In this document: one piece after another, positions 7,731 to 29,490 of the stretch
Position numbering within the stretch: the first letter of the stretch is position 1
How the letters are laid out: every line of letters starts with the position of its first letter
NCBI GenBank assembly: GCA_027307195.1
Contig: DAHUXL010000031.1
Location: 1-43,874 of the forward strand
DNA from: Rhodanobacter sp.
Lineage (GTDB): Bacteria; Pseudomonadota; Gammaproteobacteria; Xanthomonadales; Rhodanobacteraceae
Direction: 5' to 3'
Length of the DNA: 43,874 bases
The notes under the pieces: model-generated
Told to the model about the DNA's origin: nothing
Database searches by the model: none
What the model saw: the letters and a program-made list of their open reading frames with translations, nothing else
Made by a program: the position numbers and the translations under genes

Positions 7731-8384
7731 GTGATCAATGTGGTTCTGGTGGACGATCACGAGCTGGTTCGTACCGGCTTCCGGATGATTTTGCAGCAGC
7801 AGTCGGATATCAACATCAGTGGTGAGGCAGGTACGGCCGAGGAAGGTCTGCGCCTGATCCGCACGCTGACACCAGACATTGCTCTGGTCGATGTGCACAT
7901 GCCTGGCATGAGCGGCATTGAACTCACCGAGCGCGTGTGCCGTTCGAAACTGTCCACGCATATCGTCATCGTGACGGTGGTAGACGATGCACGCTTTCCA
8001 AAGCGTCTGCTTGATGCCGGTGCGCTGGGTTACCTGACCAAGGGCTGCAGTGCCGACGAGCTGGTGTCTGCGGTACGTCAAGTGGCCGGCGGTCGACGTT
8101 ACCTGGCCCCGGCGGTTGCGCAGCAGCTCGCATTGGCCACACTCGACGGCAGTGCGTCGCCGTTCGATGTGTTGTCCAGTCGCGAGCTGGAAGTGGCGAT
8201 GATGCTGGTGCGCGGCAAGCCGCTGACGATCATCGGCGAGCAACTCAATTTGAGCCCGAAAACCGTATCGACCTACAAGCAGCGTCTGATGGAAAAGCTG
8301 CATGTGGATCATGTGCTCAGCCTGGCTCACCTGATGACAGTGCATGGGCTGATCGATACGCCGAATCATCGCGTAGGCAATTGA
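7731..8384 (+). CDS. LuxR-type response regulator of the GacA/UvrY type
   Basis: VVLVDDHELVRTGFRMIL, VDVHMPGMSGIE, FPKRLLDAGALGYLTKGCSADELVSAVRQVAGGRRYLAPAVAQQLAL, LSSRELEVAMML...QLNLSPKTVSTYKQRLMEKL; closely resembles the GacA pattern. Confidence 0.9.
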   Translation: MINVVLVDDHELVRTGFRMILQQQSDINISGEAGTAEEGLRLIRTLTPDIALVDVHMPGMSGIELTERVCRSKLSTHIVIVTVVDDARFPKRLLDAGALGYLTKGCSADELVSAVRQVAGGRRYLAPAVAQQLALATLDGSASPFDVLSSRELEVAMMLVRGKPLTIIGEQLNLSPKTVSTYKQRLMEKLHVDHVLSLAHLMTVHGLIDTPNHRVGN

Positions 8385-15131: not shown

Positions 15132-15486
<355 letters not shown>

Positions 15487-15548: not shown

Positions 15549-16040
15549 TCAGGCACTGCGGTTGTGCGAGCGCATGGTGCGCTGCTTCTCGATCTGCCAG
15601 TCACGCTGCTTCTCGGTGTCGCGCTTGTCGTGTTCCTGCTTGCCGCGGGCGAGGCCGATCTCGACCTTGACCTTGTTGCCCTTCCAGTACATCGCCGTGG
15701 GCACCAGTGTGTAGCCCTTGCGCTCGACGGCGCCGACCAGCTGATCGATTTCCTTGCGATGCAGCAGCAGTTTGCGGGTGCGTCGATCTTCGGCGATGAC
15801 ATGGGTGGAGGCACTGATCAACGGCGGGATGGAGGTGCCGATCAGGAAGATCTCGTTCTTCAGGACGACCGCGTAGCTGTCGCCAAAGTTGATTCGCCCG
15901 GCACGCAATGCTTTCAGCTCCCAGCCTTGCAGGGCAATGCCGGCCTCGAAACGCTGGTCGATGTGGTATTCGAAACGGGAGCGCTTGTTGAGCGCGATGG
16001 TGCTGCCGCCCTTGTTGTCTTTATCCTTCGCCTTGGCCAT
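15549..16040 (-). CDS. smpB: SsrA-binding protein SmpB
   Basis: IALNKRSRFEYHIDQRFEAGIALQGWELKALRAGRINFGDSYAVV...RKLLLHRKEIDQLVG...GLARGKQEHDKRDTEKQRDWQ. Confidence 0.97.
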   Translation of the reverse strand: MAKAKDKDNKGGSTIALNKRSRFEYHIDQRFEAGIALQGWELKALRAGRINFGDSYAVVLKNEIFLIGTSIPPLISASTHVIAEDRRTRKLLLHRKEIDQLVGAVERKGYTLVPTAMYWKGNKVKVEIGLARGKQEHDKRDTEKQRDWQIEKQRTMRSHNRSA

Positions 16041-16123
16041 GTCCGTTAAACTCGGGCCTTGTTGCCCTGATGCCGATTCCGCCGCATACCGGGCCAAACC
16101 AAGCGTGATGTGAAGAGGTTGCC

Positions 16124-16555
16124 GTGATCGAAATCCGTCGCAGTGCACTGGTGAAGTATTCGCCGATGCAGATGTTCGACCTGGTCAATGAAGTTGAAGC
16201 ATACCCAAAGCGTTTCCCCTGGTGTGCCGGTGCCGAAGTGCTCGAGCGTGAGAATGATGTGCTGGTGGCGCGGCTGGATCTCAAGTTTGCCGGGTTCCGC
16301 CAGAGTTTCACCACGCGCAATTCGGTCGATCCGCCCAGACGCCTGCAGATGAGTCTGGTCGATGGTCCGTTCCGCAGCCTCGAAGGCGTGTGGGAATTCA
16401 TCGCATTGGGTGATGCCGGTTGCAAGGTCGCGTTCGCGCTGGACTTCGATTATGCGGGGCGGCTTGGCGGGAGTGCGTTGAAGCTTGGCTTTCAGGGGTT
16501 GGCAGGGCGCATGGTTGACGATTTCTGTCGGGAGGCCGAACGAGTCTATGGCTGA
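16124..16555 (+). CDS. ratA: RatA/COQ10-type START-like ubiquinone-binding family protein
   Basis: GTG start; IEIRRSALVKYSPMQMFDLVNEVEAYPKRFPWCAGAEVLERE; adjacent to smpB and rnfH as in other gammaproteobacteria. Confidence 0.9.
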   Translation: MIEIRRSALVKYSPMQMFDLVNEVEAYPKRFPWCAGAEVLERENDVLVARLDLKFAGFRQSFTTRNSVDPPRRLQMSLVDGPFRSLEGVWEFIALGDAGCKVAFALDFDYAGRLGGSALKLGFQGLAGRMVDDFCREAERVYG

Positions 16556-17328: not shown

Positions 17329-17404
17329 GCGTGTTGCGTCCGGATCGTAAAGGTGTCGGATGATACACTACCGGCCTGGAAACGCCGTGTGCGGAGAGTG
17401 GGTC

Positions 17405-17827
17405 ATGGAACAGGAAACCAAAGAGCTGCGCCGGGTTGGCCTCAAGGTGACCCATCCGCGCATGCGCATCCTGCAGATTTTCGACGAGGAAGGGGTGCAG
17501 CACCTCACGGCCGAAGACGTCTACAAGAAACTGCTTGCCCACCAGGAAGATATCGGCCTGGCAACGGTGTATCGCGTGCTCACCCAGTTCGAGGCGGCAG
17601 GCATCATCGTCAAGCACAATTTTGAAGGCGGGCAGGCTGTCTACGAGCTTGATCGTGGCAAACATCACGACCACATGATTGATGTGGACAGCGGGAAAGT
17701 GATTGAGTTCGTCAGCGAGGAGATCGAGCGCCTGCAGCACGAGATCGCCGCACGGCATGGCTATGTGATCGAGGATCACAGTCTGGTGCTGTATGTGCGG
17801 CCAAAGCATCACCCACGCAAAAGCTGA
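17405..17827 (+). CDS. fur: Ferric uptake regulator Fur
   Basis: GLKVTHPRMRILQIF, HLTAEDVYKKLLAHQEDIGLATVYRVLTQFEAAGI, KHHDHMIDVDSGKVIEF. Confidence 0.96.
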   Translation: MEQETKELRRVGLKVTHPRMRILQIFDEEGVQHLTAEDVYKKLLAHQEDIGLATVYRVLTQFEAAGIIVKHNFEGGQAVYELDRGKHHDHMIDVDSGKVIEFVSEEIERLQHEIAARHGYVIEDHSLVLYVRPKHHPRKS

Positions 17828-17885
17828 GCAAGCAAGACCGGCAATGCCGGCCTGTGGCTCCTGCTGGAGTTTTCGAGCAGTGCGC

Positions 17886-18090
17886 ATAAAAAAGCCGCGA
17901 GGAGGACTCCTGTCCGCCCGCGGCTGCTCCCCTACCTGTCCCAGTCGGCGTACGCGATCGACTCGCGATGGCCTGCACTCGTCGCCAGGTAGCGGCGAAA
18001 CGGCATCCTGCCGTTGTTTCAGAGCCCCCGTCCCCACGGTGACTCTGATCCGCCATCTTGCGATGGCAGCTCCCCCACATCGATGAACCG
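17886..18090 (-). ncRNA. Candidate structured sRNA or 3'UTR RNA, CsrA/Rsm-titrating-like
   Basis: Eight GGA on minus strand (plus-strand TCC at 17908, 17913, 17928, 17939, 18006, 18031, 18049, 18071); hairpin AACGGCA-GGA-TGCCGTT; terminator AGCCGCG..GGAC-AGGA-GUCC..CGCGGCU-UUUUU. Confidence 0.5.
17888..17925 (-). terminator. Intrinsic terminator of the minus-strand RNA
   Basis: Stem AGCCGCG/CGCGGCT with inner GGAC-AGGA-GTCC hairpin, followed on the minus strand by a T run. Confidence 0.75.
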
Positions 18091-18131
18091 ATCGTAACGA
18101 GCCCTTCACGTTTCCGGTATCGGAAAAATTC

Positions 18132-19730
18132 CTAGTTCTGTCGGCGAGTATCTACGGGACTGTTGTTGCTTCGCAGCAAAATTCTCAGATGCACGCCGGC
18201 ATGTTCGGGGCGCAGGCGGAATTGACCGCCAAGCGAGGTCACACGGTCGCGCATGCCTTGCAGGCCGCGGCCACCACGGGGCAGTCGGCTGGGCAGACCG
18301 GCCCCGTCGTCGCGCAGGTCGAGCACTGCCAGCGCGATACCCTGACGCTCGCCGATACGCAGGCGCAGTCTGAATTCGCTGGCCTGTGCATGCTTGACGG
18401 CGTTGGTTGCGCTTTCCTGCACCAGTCGATAAATCGCGGTGCGCGTATCGTCGTCGAGCAGGCGCGGATCACCGTGCAGTTCGGTGTGGTACGCCATGCC
18501 GGCGGTGTTCAACAGGTCACGGATCGGGCCTTCGTCGAGTGCGCGCAGCAATCCGAACTCGTCCAGCACGGCTGGACGCAGGTCGTCCAGCAGGCGGTGC
18601 AGGGCGCGACGCATGTGCGCCAGAATGGTATTGATCGAGGTACTCATGTCCTCCATGCCGGCCTGGTGCAGGCGCGCCTGGGCCAGCTTTACGTGGGTCT
18701 GGATCGCGGTGATGTTCTGGCCCAGTTCGTCGTGCAGTTCGGCGGCAAGATGCCGTCGCTGGTTTTCGTCTGCCTGCAGGTTGCCGCGGGCGGCGTCGCG
18801 CAATTGATGGGCAAGTTGGTCCAGTCGGCGATTGACCGCGCCCAGATAGACGTTCTGCTCGGCGACCCGCTCGCTGCTTCGCCGCAAGGCATCGGTAGCC
18901 GAACCCAGCATCAAGGCACCGGTGCCGGCGACAGCGAGAAACAGGTAAGCCGCCGCGGTCGACGGGGCGTGACCAAGATGCTGGTCGACCAGGGTCATGC
19001 CGAGACTGGTGATGAGCATCGCCAGGCTGGCGCCGCGCCAGCCGTGGCGAAACGCAAAAAACAGCACCGGTGCCAGTGACAGCACACGGGCAAATTGCGG
19101 TTGCGGTGCGGCCTGTTCAGACAGCACCAGCAGAATCGTCATCGACGGCAACATCACCAGCAGGCCATCCATGAGTAGGCCGGCCAGGGCGCGCTGGTCG
19201 AGCCGGGTGCGCAGCAGCATGATCATCAACGGCACGATCAGCAGGATGCCCAGATAGTGGCTGAGCAACTCCTCGCCGAGTACTCGCAGCATCAGGTCCG
19301 GTGAGTTGGGTGAATGGATCATTGCCAGCAGGGCTGCGTCCACCGCTGTCGTGGCGGTTACTACCAGCACTACGGAGAGCAGCAGTCGAGTCACCTCCTG
19401 TGGACTGTGCAGGCTGGCGTGCAGATTGAATCGCCGTAGCAGCCACAGACTGGCCGCCATCACCAGCGGCTCGGGCAATTCGCCGATGGTGAAACCGCTC
19501 CAGCCCAGTGGCAGGCCATGGGCCACGCTGATGCCCGCGGATGCGGCCAGTTCTGCGCCAAGGAGCCAGCCCCAGTGGCGTATGGGCGTGAGCAGCAACG
19601 CGCCGAAGCGCAAGCCATACGGCAACATCCAGAACGGTTGTACGGTCGGCCACAGCAACAGCCATAGCAGTACATAGCCGGCGGCCAGCAACGGGCCGGA
19701 GTTGGGCAGATGGAATGATTTCAGGCGCAT
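18132..19730 (-). CDS. Membrane sensor histidine kinase with MASE1-like N-terminus and HisKA_3 core
   Basis: Multiple N-terminal TM segments; RRHLAAELHDELGQNITAIQTHVKLA H-box; VQESATNAVKHAQA N-box; DDGAGLPSRLPRGGRGLQGMRDRV G-box. Confidence 0.9.
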   Translation of the reverse strand: MRLKSFHLPNSGPLLAAGYVLLWLLLWPTVQPFWMLPYGLRFGALLLTPIRHWGWLLGAELAASAGISVAHGLPLGWSGFTIGELPEPLVMAASLWLLRRFNLHASLHSPQEVTRLLLSVVLVVTATTAVDAALLAMIHSPNSPDLMLRVLGEELLSHYLGILLIVPLMIMLLRTRLDQRALAGLLMDGLLVMLPSMTILLVLSEQAAPQPQFARVLSLAPVLFFAFRHGWRGASLAMLITSLGMTLVDQHLGHAPSTAAAYLFLAVAGTGALMLGSATDALRRSSERVAEQNVYLGAVNRRLDQLAHQLRDAARGNLQADENQRRHLAAELHDELGQNITAIQTHVKLAQARLHQAGMEDMSTSINTILAHMRRALHRLLDDLRPAVLDEFGLLRALDEGPIRDLLNTAGMAYHTELHGDPRLLDDDTRTAIYRLVQESATNAVKHAQASEFRLRLRIGERQGIALAVLDLRDDGAGLPSRLPRGGRGLQGMRDRVTSLGGQFRLRPEHAGVHLRILLRSNNSPVDTRRQN

Positions 19731-19825
19731 GGACGGATGGTACATGCGCGATCCGCATCGATGAGCCAGCACGATTGTTGACGACGGACGCGCATAAAGT
19801 TCGGATCCATGTGTAAAGTAGCGGG

Positions 19826-20461
19826 ATGTACAGCATTGTTCTGGTCGATGACCACGCCATCGTTCGTGAGGGCTTCAAGCGGCTGATCGAGATGGAGCCG
19901 GATCTTGACGTCGTGGCCGAATGCCGCAGCGCCGATGATGCAGTGGAGGCGGTGGGGCATTGGCGTCCCGATCTGGTGGCGCTGGATCTGTCCTTGCCGG
20001 ACGGCAGCGGTCTGCCGTTGATCGAGCACCTGCTCAGCGTGGCCGCCGAGACACGTATCGTGGTGCTGAGCATGCATGACGGCGAGCCGTACGTGTCCGA
20101 GGCTCTGCGTCGTGGCGCCAGTGGCTACGTGACCAAGGGCGTCGCGCCTGAGGAACTCGTTGCAGGCCTGCGTGCGGTGATGCAGGGCGAGTGCTTCCTG
20201 AGTTCGGATCTGCGCCAGCGCCGGGCCGATCGGCCGAACGCGGCACTTGACCCGATCAACCGTCTGACCGCGCGCGAGCGCGAGGTATTCCTGTTGCTGG
20301 CCGGCGGGCGTGCACCGAAACAGGTGGCGGCGGAACTGGGGATCGGCCAGAAAACCGTCTACATCCATCGCGCCAGCCTGATGGGCAAACTGGGCGCGGG
20401 TTCGGAACTGGATCTGTACCGGATGGCGACCGAACGCGGGCTGTTGCCACCGAACAGCTGA
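19826..20461 (+). CDS. NarL/FixJ (UhpA-like) response regulator
   Basis: SIVLVDDHAIVREGFKRLI, LDLSLPDGSGLPLI, RRGASGYVTKG, LTAREREVFLLLAGGRAPKQVAAELGIGQKTVYIHRASLMGKLGAGS. Confidence 0.93.
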   Translation: MYSIVLVDDHAIVREGFKRLIEMEPDLDVVAECRSADDAVEAVGHWRPDLVALDLSLPDGSGLPLIEHLLSVAAETRIVVLSMHDGEPYVSEALRRGASGYVTKGVAPEELVAGLRAVMQGECFLSSDLRQRRADRPNAALDPINRLTAREREVFLLLAGGRAPKQVAAELGIGQKTVYIHRASLMGKLGAGSELDLYRMATERGLLPPNS

Positions 20462-28189: not shown

Positions 28190-28267
28190 CTGGATGTTGT
28201 GAATGCCACTACCGGATCGAATGTTGGCTTGTGCCTCGTGATCCGTACCGTTAGCATTCCCGCACGT

Positions 28268-28410
28268 TGTCATTGGGGAGTAGCCAGCCTCGTCCCCTGA
28301 GGCGCTCGCATCAACATACTTGGTCGTCGCTGTTTTTGACGCCATGGTGCGAACAGCAGCCGCCACCATCGGGTGGCGGTCCTGCCCGGCGAGACCTTTG
28401 GCCATCGACA
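28268..28410 (+). promoter_or_regulatory. yybP-ykoY manganese riboswitch
   Basis: TTGGGGAGTAGCC ... TCAACATACT ... GGCGAGACCTTTGGCC, the diagnostic conserved segments of this class in the right order; flanking TGTC/GACA closing pairs. Confidence 0.93.
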
Positions 28411-28417
28411 TGCTTAC

Positions 28418-28475
28418 CCTAGACCGGGCGAGCGGTGTCGTTGAGCCATCGGTTATTCCGCTCGCCCGGTCCAGG
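28418..28475 (+). promoter_or_regulatory. Putative riboswitch expression platform (SD-sequestering hairpin)
   Basis: CCT-a-GACCGGGCGAGCGG / CCGCTCGCCCGGTC-c-AGG: perfect 14-bp arms (28422-28435 with 28458-28471) plus CCT pairing the AGG just upstream of ATG 28483. Confidence 0.7.
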
Positions 28476-28482
28476 TCATCCC

Positions 28483-29490
28483 ATGTTGCTTACCCTGTGT
28501 CTGTTTCTCGGTTCGGCCGGCGCGATCTATCTCGCCTGCGAATACTTCGTCAACGGCGTCGAATGGTTCGGGCAGAAGCTCAAGCTGAGTGAGACGGCGA
28601 CCGGTACGGTGCTGGCGGCGTTCGGCACGGCGTTGCCGGAAAGCGCGGTGACTTTCGTCGCGGTGATGTTCGGCAAGACAGCCGAGGCGCGCGATATCGG
28701 CGTGGGTGCCGCGATGGGTGGTCCGCTGGTATTGGCCACGATCGCCTATGCGGTGGTCGGCGTGGCGATGTGGTGCAATCGCCATCGGCTGCGGCGGACT
28801 GACCGGATCATCCGGGTCGATCATCGCCGGCTGGCGCGCGATCAATCGTGGTTCCTGGCGATTTTTGTGGTCAAGGTCGGCCTGGGGCTGGTCGTGTTCG
28901 CGTTCAAGCCGCTGCTGGGCGTGCTGTTTCTGGTTGCCTATGCCATGTATGTGTGGCGCGAAATTCGCAGCGACGACAGTGCTCCGGAAGACGAGACACT
29001 TGAGCCGCTGAAGTTTCGCACCAGTCAGATCGATCCGGCCCTGCGCTGGGTGGTGATGCAGACGGTGGCAGCGTTGGTGGTGATTGCAGCCGCATCGCGG
29101 GTGTTCGTCAGCCAGCTCGAAGCCATCGGCGTCGCACTTTCATTGCCGCCGAATCTGGTCGCGCTGCTGCTGAGTCCGGTCGCGACAGAACTGCCGGAAA
29201 CCGTCAACGCACTGATCTGGGTACGCCAGGGCAAGGAGCGTCTGGCGCTGGCGAACATCTCCGGCGCGATGATGATCCAGGCCACCATCCCCAGCTCACT
29301 GGCGATCTTCGCCACGCCATGGCTGTTCGATACGCCGCTGATCGTGGCCGGCGTACTGACCGCGATCGCCATCGTGTATCTGTGGTGGTTGTTCCGCCGT
29401 GGTCGGGTAGACGCACGCTGGCTGTTGCCGGTCGGCCTGCTGTACGGCGTGTTTGCCGGGTTTGTGGCGTGGCACTTTGCCGGCAGATGA
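28483..29490 (+). CDS. CaCA-superfamily sodium/calcium exchanger-like transporter, probable Mn2+-responsive cation exporter
   Basis: Two repeats with alpha-motif-like GTVLAAFGTALPESAVTFVA and LLLSPVATELPETVNALIW; multi-TM; preceded by yybP-ykoY riboswitch. Confidence 0.88.
   Translation: MLLTLCLFLGSAGAIYLACEYFVNGVEWFGQKLKLSETATGTVLAAFGTALPESAVTFVAVMFGKTAEARDIGVGAAMGGPLVLATIAYAVVGVAMWCNRHRLRRTDRIIRVDHRRLARDQSWFLAIFVVKVGLGLVVFAFKPLLGVLFLVAYAMYVWREIRSDDSAPEDETLEPLKFRTSQIDPALRWVVMQTVAALVVIAAASRVFVSQLEAIGVALSLPPNLVALLLSPVATELPETVNALIWVRQGKERLALANISGAMMIQATIPSSLAIFATPWLFDTPLIVAGVLTAIAIVYLWWLFRRGRVDARWLLPVGLLYGVFAGFVAWHFAGR

Follow-up and report, generated by a model that had tools for sequence, protein, structure and literature searches.

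The 43,874-nt stretch of Rhodanobacter sp. DNA analysed here, hereafter the window, carries on its minus strand a conserved interval of about 197 nt between a sensor kinase gene and fur, and this interval is predicted to encode a small RNA (sRNA) of the sponge type (Table 1). The kinase scored 181 bits against the NCBIfam UhpB model (NF008649, cut-off 408), which makes it a relative and not a member of that family. Similarly, the adjacent response regulator scored 160 bits against MctR, 145 bits against UhpA (NF007685, cut-off 258) and 128 bits against UvrY/SirA/GacA (NF007018, cut-off 280), all under cut-off, and it is regarded as a relative of UhpA without belonging to that family or to the UvrY/SirA/GacA family. 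A second NarL-type regulator, further away in the window, reached 219 bits against the UvrY/SirA/GacA model (cut-off 280, not reached); it is likely the GacA orthologue meant in the original prediction, which had correctly recorded a GacA/UvrY-like regulator in the same window. CsrA is encoded in the genome as a single copy (PF02599, 90.8 bits) in which the VHREEI segment is present. Elsewhere in the window, a tmRNA gene (15132-15486, plus strand, 201 bits) adjoins an ORF of smpB-like appearance (15549-16148, minus strand), and a yybP-ykoY manganese riboswitch (28263-28387, plus strand, 52.7 bits) lies directly upstream of a sodium/calcium-exchanger-family gene (28423-29490).

Table 1. Features of the predicted sRNA locus and of the regulator genes in the window.
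Feature	Position	Strand	Basis or conservation
GacA/UvrY-family response regulator, second NarL-type	7731-8363	+	Best NCBIfam match UvrY/SirA/GacA
fur, convergent, downstream of the sRNA; start codon uncertain	17360..17827	+	Pfam FUR; NCBIfam Fur above cut-off
Predicted sponge sRNA, ~197 nt	17888..18084	-	76-sequence alignment and covariation
Intrinsic terminator, inner tip GGACAGGAGUCC (17904-17915) with SELEX-like ACAGGAGU loop	17888..17922	-	
Linker GGA after the variable domain	17928-17930	-	In 52/76 sequences only
Variable domain closed by long-range helix CCGCUACCU/AGGUAGGGG	17929..17995	-	Helices 4-5
Hairpin 3, loop CAGGA(U/A/C)G, the CsrB-repeat consensus	17999..18015	-	CAGGA in 72/76
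Hairpin 2, tip GUGGGGAC with GGA	18020..18047	-	Tip kept in 76/76
Hairpin 1, GNRA-like loop (GCAA/GUGA/GCGA), without GGA	18051..18068	-	Covariation and loop types
5' leader CATCGATGTGGGGGAG with GGGGGA	18070..18085	-	GGGGGA kept in 76/76
-10-like hexamer TACGAT, in conserved TCGTTANNNT, -12 to -7	18091..18096	-	Column conservation, 61 homologues
Conserved operator TAGGAATTTTTCCGATA, imperfect inverted repeat, centre near -43	18118..18134	-	Near-invariant in homologues
Sensor histidine kinase, MASE1-HisKA_3-HATPase, UhpB-like; start codon uncertain	18132..19772	-	Pfam
NarL-type response regulator, divergent, MctR/UhpA-like, predicted sRNA activator	19826..20461	+	Response_reg and GerE

The start of the predicted sRNA is presumed to be the A at 18084, on the grounds of the -10-like box and conservation, and its end is the last position of the terminator T-run, at 17888; a covariance model built with the window sequence included scored this interval at 183.6 bits (E 5.9e-57). 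The individual features from which a CsrA-titrating RNA had originally been proposed were recovered, including eight GGA motifs on the minus strand against two on the plus strand, the perfect hairpin with a GGA loop AACGGCAGGATGCCGTT at 17999-18015, the element GGACAGGAGTCC at 17904-17915 within the terminator stem, the terminator itself (a stem followed by TTTTTT at 17888-17893), the GCCATC-GCAA-GATGGC hairpin within 18051-18068 and the long-range CTACCTG/CAGGTAG pairing in the minus-strand RNA. GGA richness as such did not hold as evidence, as eight GGA in about 198 nt compare with a mean of 6.4 in dinucleotide shuffles (P ~0.27). The sRNA fold is more stable than dinucleotide shuffles (z = -4.4), and the complementary strand folds equally well (z = -4.4), so that the strand is not given by folding alone. 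As for the claim that no ORF explains the interval, mechanically called ORFs do overlap it, but none looks coding, because the homologue alignment contains indels that are not multiples of three. The single-sequence case made from GGA count and folding is therefore weak when taken alone, and the evidence for an sRNA is the conservation of invariant GGA loops and covarying stems among 76 homologues, not the raw GGA count.

DNA search showed that 32 of the 35 other genomes of the genus carry the interval, and the region is 97% identical at the DNA level to that of a relative (G014). When the kinase protein was used as query, 80 loci were obtained, which belong to Rhodanobacter, Dyella, Frateuria, Fulvimonas and MAGs; in 75 of them the kinase is followed downstream by the operator and the terminator tip. 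Of the five exceptions, L050 and L108 are cut off within the kinase, and L061, L078 and L095 lack a fur gene beside it; the genomes of L078 and L095 carry the sRNA elsewhere (122 and 119 bits), and in the genome of L061 (G324) the sRNA was not detected anywhere, though kinase and regulator are present. This last genome is a MAG labelled Chitinophagaceae with a kinase 78% identical to that of the window, and mislabelling or mixing of the MAG is likely.

The compensatory changes with retained GGA loops that the original prediction had named as a check were found in the alignment of the 76 homologous sequences, on which all structure and covariation counts are based. The consensus structure comprises 40 pairs in six helices, with standard pairs in 97.2% of cells, compared with just 34-49% in slid controls. 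Changes on both sides were observed for 22 pairs, amounting to 304 such cells against a mean of 101 in shuffled alignments, and none of 500 shuffles was as high. As related sequences inflate counts of double changes, a parsimony count was made on the kinase protein tree, in which double changes from one Watson-Crick pair to another, summed over the pairs, arose independently at least 90 times, with 6 to 10 events for each of several pairs of hairpin 2. The structure is thus kept by compensatory change while the loops are retained, as expected of the functional class of CsrA-titrating RNAs.

All cells of hairpin 1 are paired, and four of its seven pairs changed on both sides, as did seven of the 11 pairs of hairpin 2 and four pairs in helices 4-5, where 93-97% of cells are paired. 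The interior of the variable domain differs among homologues and is mostly absent in L049 (4679-4835), a natural variant of 157 nt in total that lacks about 40 nt of this domain and keeps the conserved GGA tips, which suggests that the variable domain is dispensable. In addition to these stems, GGA is present at alignment columns 13, 57, 85 and 196 in 72-76 of the 76 sequences, with mean unpaired probabilities of 0.49, 0.67, 0.99 (hairpin 3) and 1.0 (terminator loop), so that several GGA motifs lie in hairpin loops or single strands, and the G-rich segments GUGGGGGAG and GUGGGG are invariant among homologues. In hairpin 3, three further sequences read CAAGGAU, and the base 3' of the loop CAGGA is U in 53 sequences, A in 16 and C in seven, and never G. 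The inner tip of the terminator is identical in 75 of 76 sequences, whereas the outer stem varies widely. Terminator function requires a stable stem and not a particular loop sequence, and the frozen ACAGGAGU in this loop is for that reason best read as a protein site.

Both loops agree with published rules for CsrA sites. The CsrB repeats of E. coli read CAGGA(U/A/C)G, and the SELEX site of CsrA is RUACARGGAUGU, in which ACA and GGA are always retained and AC pairs with GU (PMC7652899). Hairpin 3 presents CAGGA with U, A or C as the following base, and the SELEX pattern (ACA..GGA..GU, the AC and GU being paired) is matched by ACAGGAGU at the terminator tip. The tips of hairpin 2 and of the terminator deviate from the ideal ANGGAN hexaloop, and hairpin 1 has no GGA.

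Upstream of the sRNA lies the operator TAGGAAWTTTTCCRATA, near-invariant in 61 equally spaced homologues, and after it comes the conserved TCGTTANNNT. This promoter was identified by comparative alignment and not by sigma-70 scan: no -35 consensus was found at it, and a general sigma-70 promoter scan gave no match at the consensus threshold. When +1 is set at the invariant A at 18084, TACGAT spans -12 to -7 and the operator has its centre at about -43, and this combination of a -10 box and an operator without a -35 element suggests an activator-dependent promoter. The first base of the operator lies 48-50 nt from the sRNA start in all 76 sequences. In the window its first TAG doubles as the kinase stop codon, and in L077 and L083 about 90 nt separate the operator from the kinase stop that precedes it. 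The window genome contains a single match to the operator at up to two mismatches; a search of 40 genomes of the genus showed that matches at zero or one mismatch occur once per genome and fall at the sRNA site wherever coordinates are comparable with the DNA search. The GacA-type palindrome has the form TGTAAG-N-CTTACA. No such element (TGTAAG-N(4-8)-CTTACA, up to one mismatch per half) was found in the window, this promoter included.

The sRNA and the two-component pair are closely associated. The gene order regulator-kinase-sRNA-fur was observed in 73 of 73 loci having all three proteins, and among sampled genomes of the family, the sRNA is present in 15 of 15 with the kinase and absent from four of four without it. 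In several module-free genomes (L158, L162, L165 and L169), recN directly follows fur, and as these genes adjoin where the module is absent, gain or loss between fur and recN seems to have involved the entire block as one unit. By contrast, the GacA-like regulator has relatives in all of the 18 genomes of the order that were tested, whether these carry the sRNA or not.

Clear members of the sRNA family are restricted to the family of the window, which accounts for 61 of the 62 genomes with covariance-model matches among 300 genomes of the order; the remaining match, in G211, is weak (21 bits). Among 274 genomes of the class, the model gave one weak match besides the window's own genome. The matches in G211 (order) and in G563 (class, 24.8 bits) were rejected as members outside the family, their scores being unconvincing. 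The genome-scale search missed three further genera (G266, G258 and G273) in which a kinase relative lies by fur and an operator-like site is present; the model matched in G266 (72 bits) and G258 (21 bits). Distant kinase homologues in another family (35% identity) have neither sRNA nor operator nearby. A second sRNA copy in the window genome was likewise discarded, as just two matches of 16.7 and 14 bits were obtained, which score on both strands and were treated as chance matches; the former (L116 1501-1671; G000 contig C51:3719-3889), centred on a AACGGCAGGACUGCCGUU hairpin with a GGA loop, is probably due to chance.

Considered together, these features make it likely that the interval is an independent sponge RNA gene of about 197 nt, resembling CsrB and RsmZ, which is probably switched on by the adjacent UhpAB-like system. 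The Csr/Rsm-type reading of the original prediction is upheld by the compensatory changes with GGA loops kept, by the presence of CsrA and by the Rfam comparison. CsrB, CsrC, RsmX, RsmY, PrrB_RsmZ and TwoAYGGAY gave no match at gathering scores in the window, and no Rfam family, related or not, matched 17800-18250 at E <= 5. The sRNA represents a new RNA family that very probably acts in the manner of CsrB and RsmZ.

Other accounts of the interval have to be weighed against this. That it is no more than a strong terminator region of chance G-richness, with no regulatory role, agrees with a GGA count not above that of dinucleotide shuffles, and has a negligible probability, being refuted by the family-wide conservation, the invariant loops and the number of compensatory double changes. 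An antisense-type sRNA, whose invariant G-rich leader and loops would pair with C-rich stretches of mRNAs or sRNAs and not with CsrA, would explain why GUGGGGGAG and GUGGGG are invariant, as expected of seed regions; we consider it improbable, as the U/A/C but never G rule of hairpin 3 and the ACAGGAGU tip fit the site rules of CsrA (PMC7652899) and not one complementary target. The original prediction had also allowed for a kinase 3'UTR, a structured part of the kinase mRNA that would sponge CsrA only within that transcript. The sRNA indeed lies directly downstream of the kinase on the same strand, with the operator overlapping the kinase stop in the window, and a precedent exists in RsmU of Xanthomonas, which derives from the comEA mRNA (PMC7694677). 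This version is disfavoured and has only a slim chance of being correct, because the sRNA has its own conserved operator and -10 box at fixed spacing and lies away from the kinase in two genomes. In L148 (G325) and L149 (G326), the sRNA and a recognisable operator, TGGGAATTTTTCCGATT, adjoin fur with no kinase in reach; these separations argue for an independent gene. In L148, the upstream genes, as read from their translations, resemble a MerR-type regulator and a copper-type ATPase. The kinase/regulator pairs of these two MAGs are found on other contigs (L078 and L095), a natural separation of the module.

For the sponge RNA itself, the question of its controller admits two answers. In a classical Gac/Rsm cascade, the operator would be read by the GacA/UvrY-family regulator at 7731-8363, a view favoured by its NCBIfam match and by the precedent of many gammaproteobacteria in which Csr sRNAs are driven by regulators of this kind (PMC7652899). 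We hold this to be unlikely: the sRNA tracks the UhpAB-like pair, whereas the GacA-like protein is indifferent to it and the GacA-type palindrome is absent from the window. The adjacent UhpA/MctR-like regulator is consequently the better guess as controller, and position and co-occurrence, on which this link solely rests, indicate that it probably acts at the operator. According to the model we propose, the MASE1 kinase would phosphorylate this regulator, which would bind the operator near -43 and switch on the promoter; transcription would start at about 18084 and end at the terminator, whose own loop would be a CsrA-type site; and CsrA dimers, bound by the several GGA motifs that hairpin loops and linkers present, would be titrated away from their target mRNAs. 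Whether the UhpAB-like pair, the single operator and the sponge RNA form a self-contained Rhodanobacteraceae module between fur and recN, as a second, Gac-independent entry into the Csr/Rsm system with the sponge RNA as its main or only target, is a proposal to which we give about even odds.

Like CsrB and CsrC of E. coli and RsmX, RsmY and RsmZ of Pseudomonas, the predicted sRNA contains multiple GGA motifs, placed in loops and linkers, and the CAGGA(U/A/C)G repeat; it likewise ends in an intrinsic terminator and has a promoter of its own with a palindromic site upstream. It differs from them in matching no Rfam model, in having the operator TAGGAAWTTTTCC instead of the Gac palindrome and in belonging to a module with its own two-component pair; in addition, it has about five conserved GGA elements, compared with about 18-22 GGA in CsrB. 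RsmU (sRX061), the known RsmA-binding sRNA that Xanthomonas campestris derives from the comEA 3'UTR (PMC7694677), comes from the same order and likewise has a few GGA motifs, whereas the Rhodanobacter sRNA lies at the fur/kinase locus with its own promoter and operator and a covarying multi-hairpin fold, and is not processed from a comEA 3'UTR. The kinase and the regulator are closest to UhpB/UhpA and MctS/MctR, from which they are set apart by scores well under the curated cut-offs, by an RNA gene as conserved partner and by the absence of a transporter from the fur-to-recN block. The logic of a two-component system acting through a sponge RNA on CsrA would be that of BarA/UvrY-CsrB and GacS/GacA-Rsm; here, however, the pair genetically linked to the RNA is UhpAB-like, and the GacA-like regulator, whose gene lies at another site, does not co-vary with the RNA.

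RsmA/CsrA is a global regulator in Xanthomonadales, and the classical sponge RNAs have been reported missing in Xanthomonas, where rsmB homologues were described as absent (PMC3937308) and no homologues came up when CsrB, CsrC and RsmV/W/X/Y/Z were used as queries (PMC7694677). In the open-access literature searched, we found no report of this sRNA in Rhodanobacteraceae. A strongly supported sponge-type RNA family is now available in the related Rhodanobacteraceae, together with an operator and a linked sensor system, and the control of CsrA activity in this family, as well as its signal, becomes directly testable. If the proposed circuit holds, an unrelated RNA family, together with a UhpAB-like two-component system, would have reached the same CsrA-titration logic.
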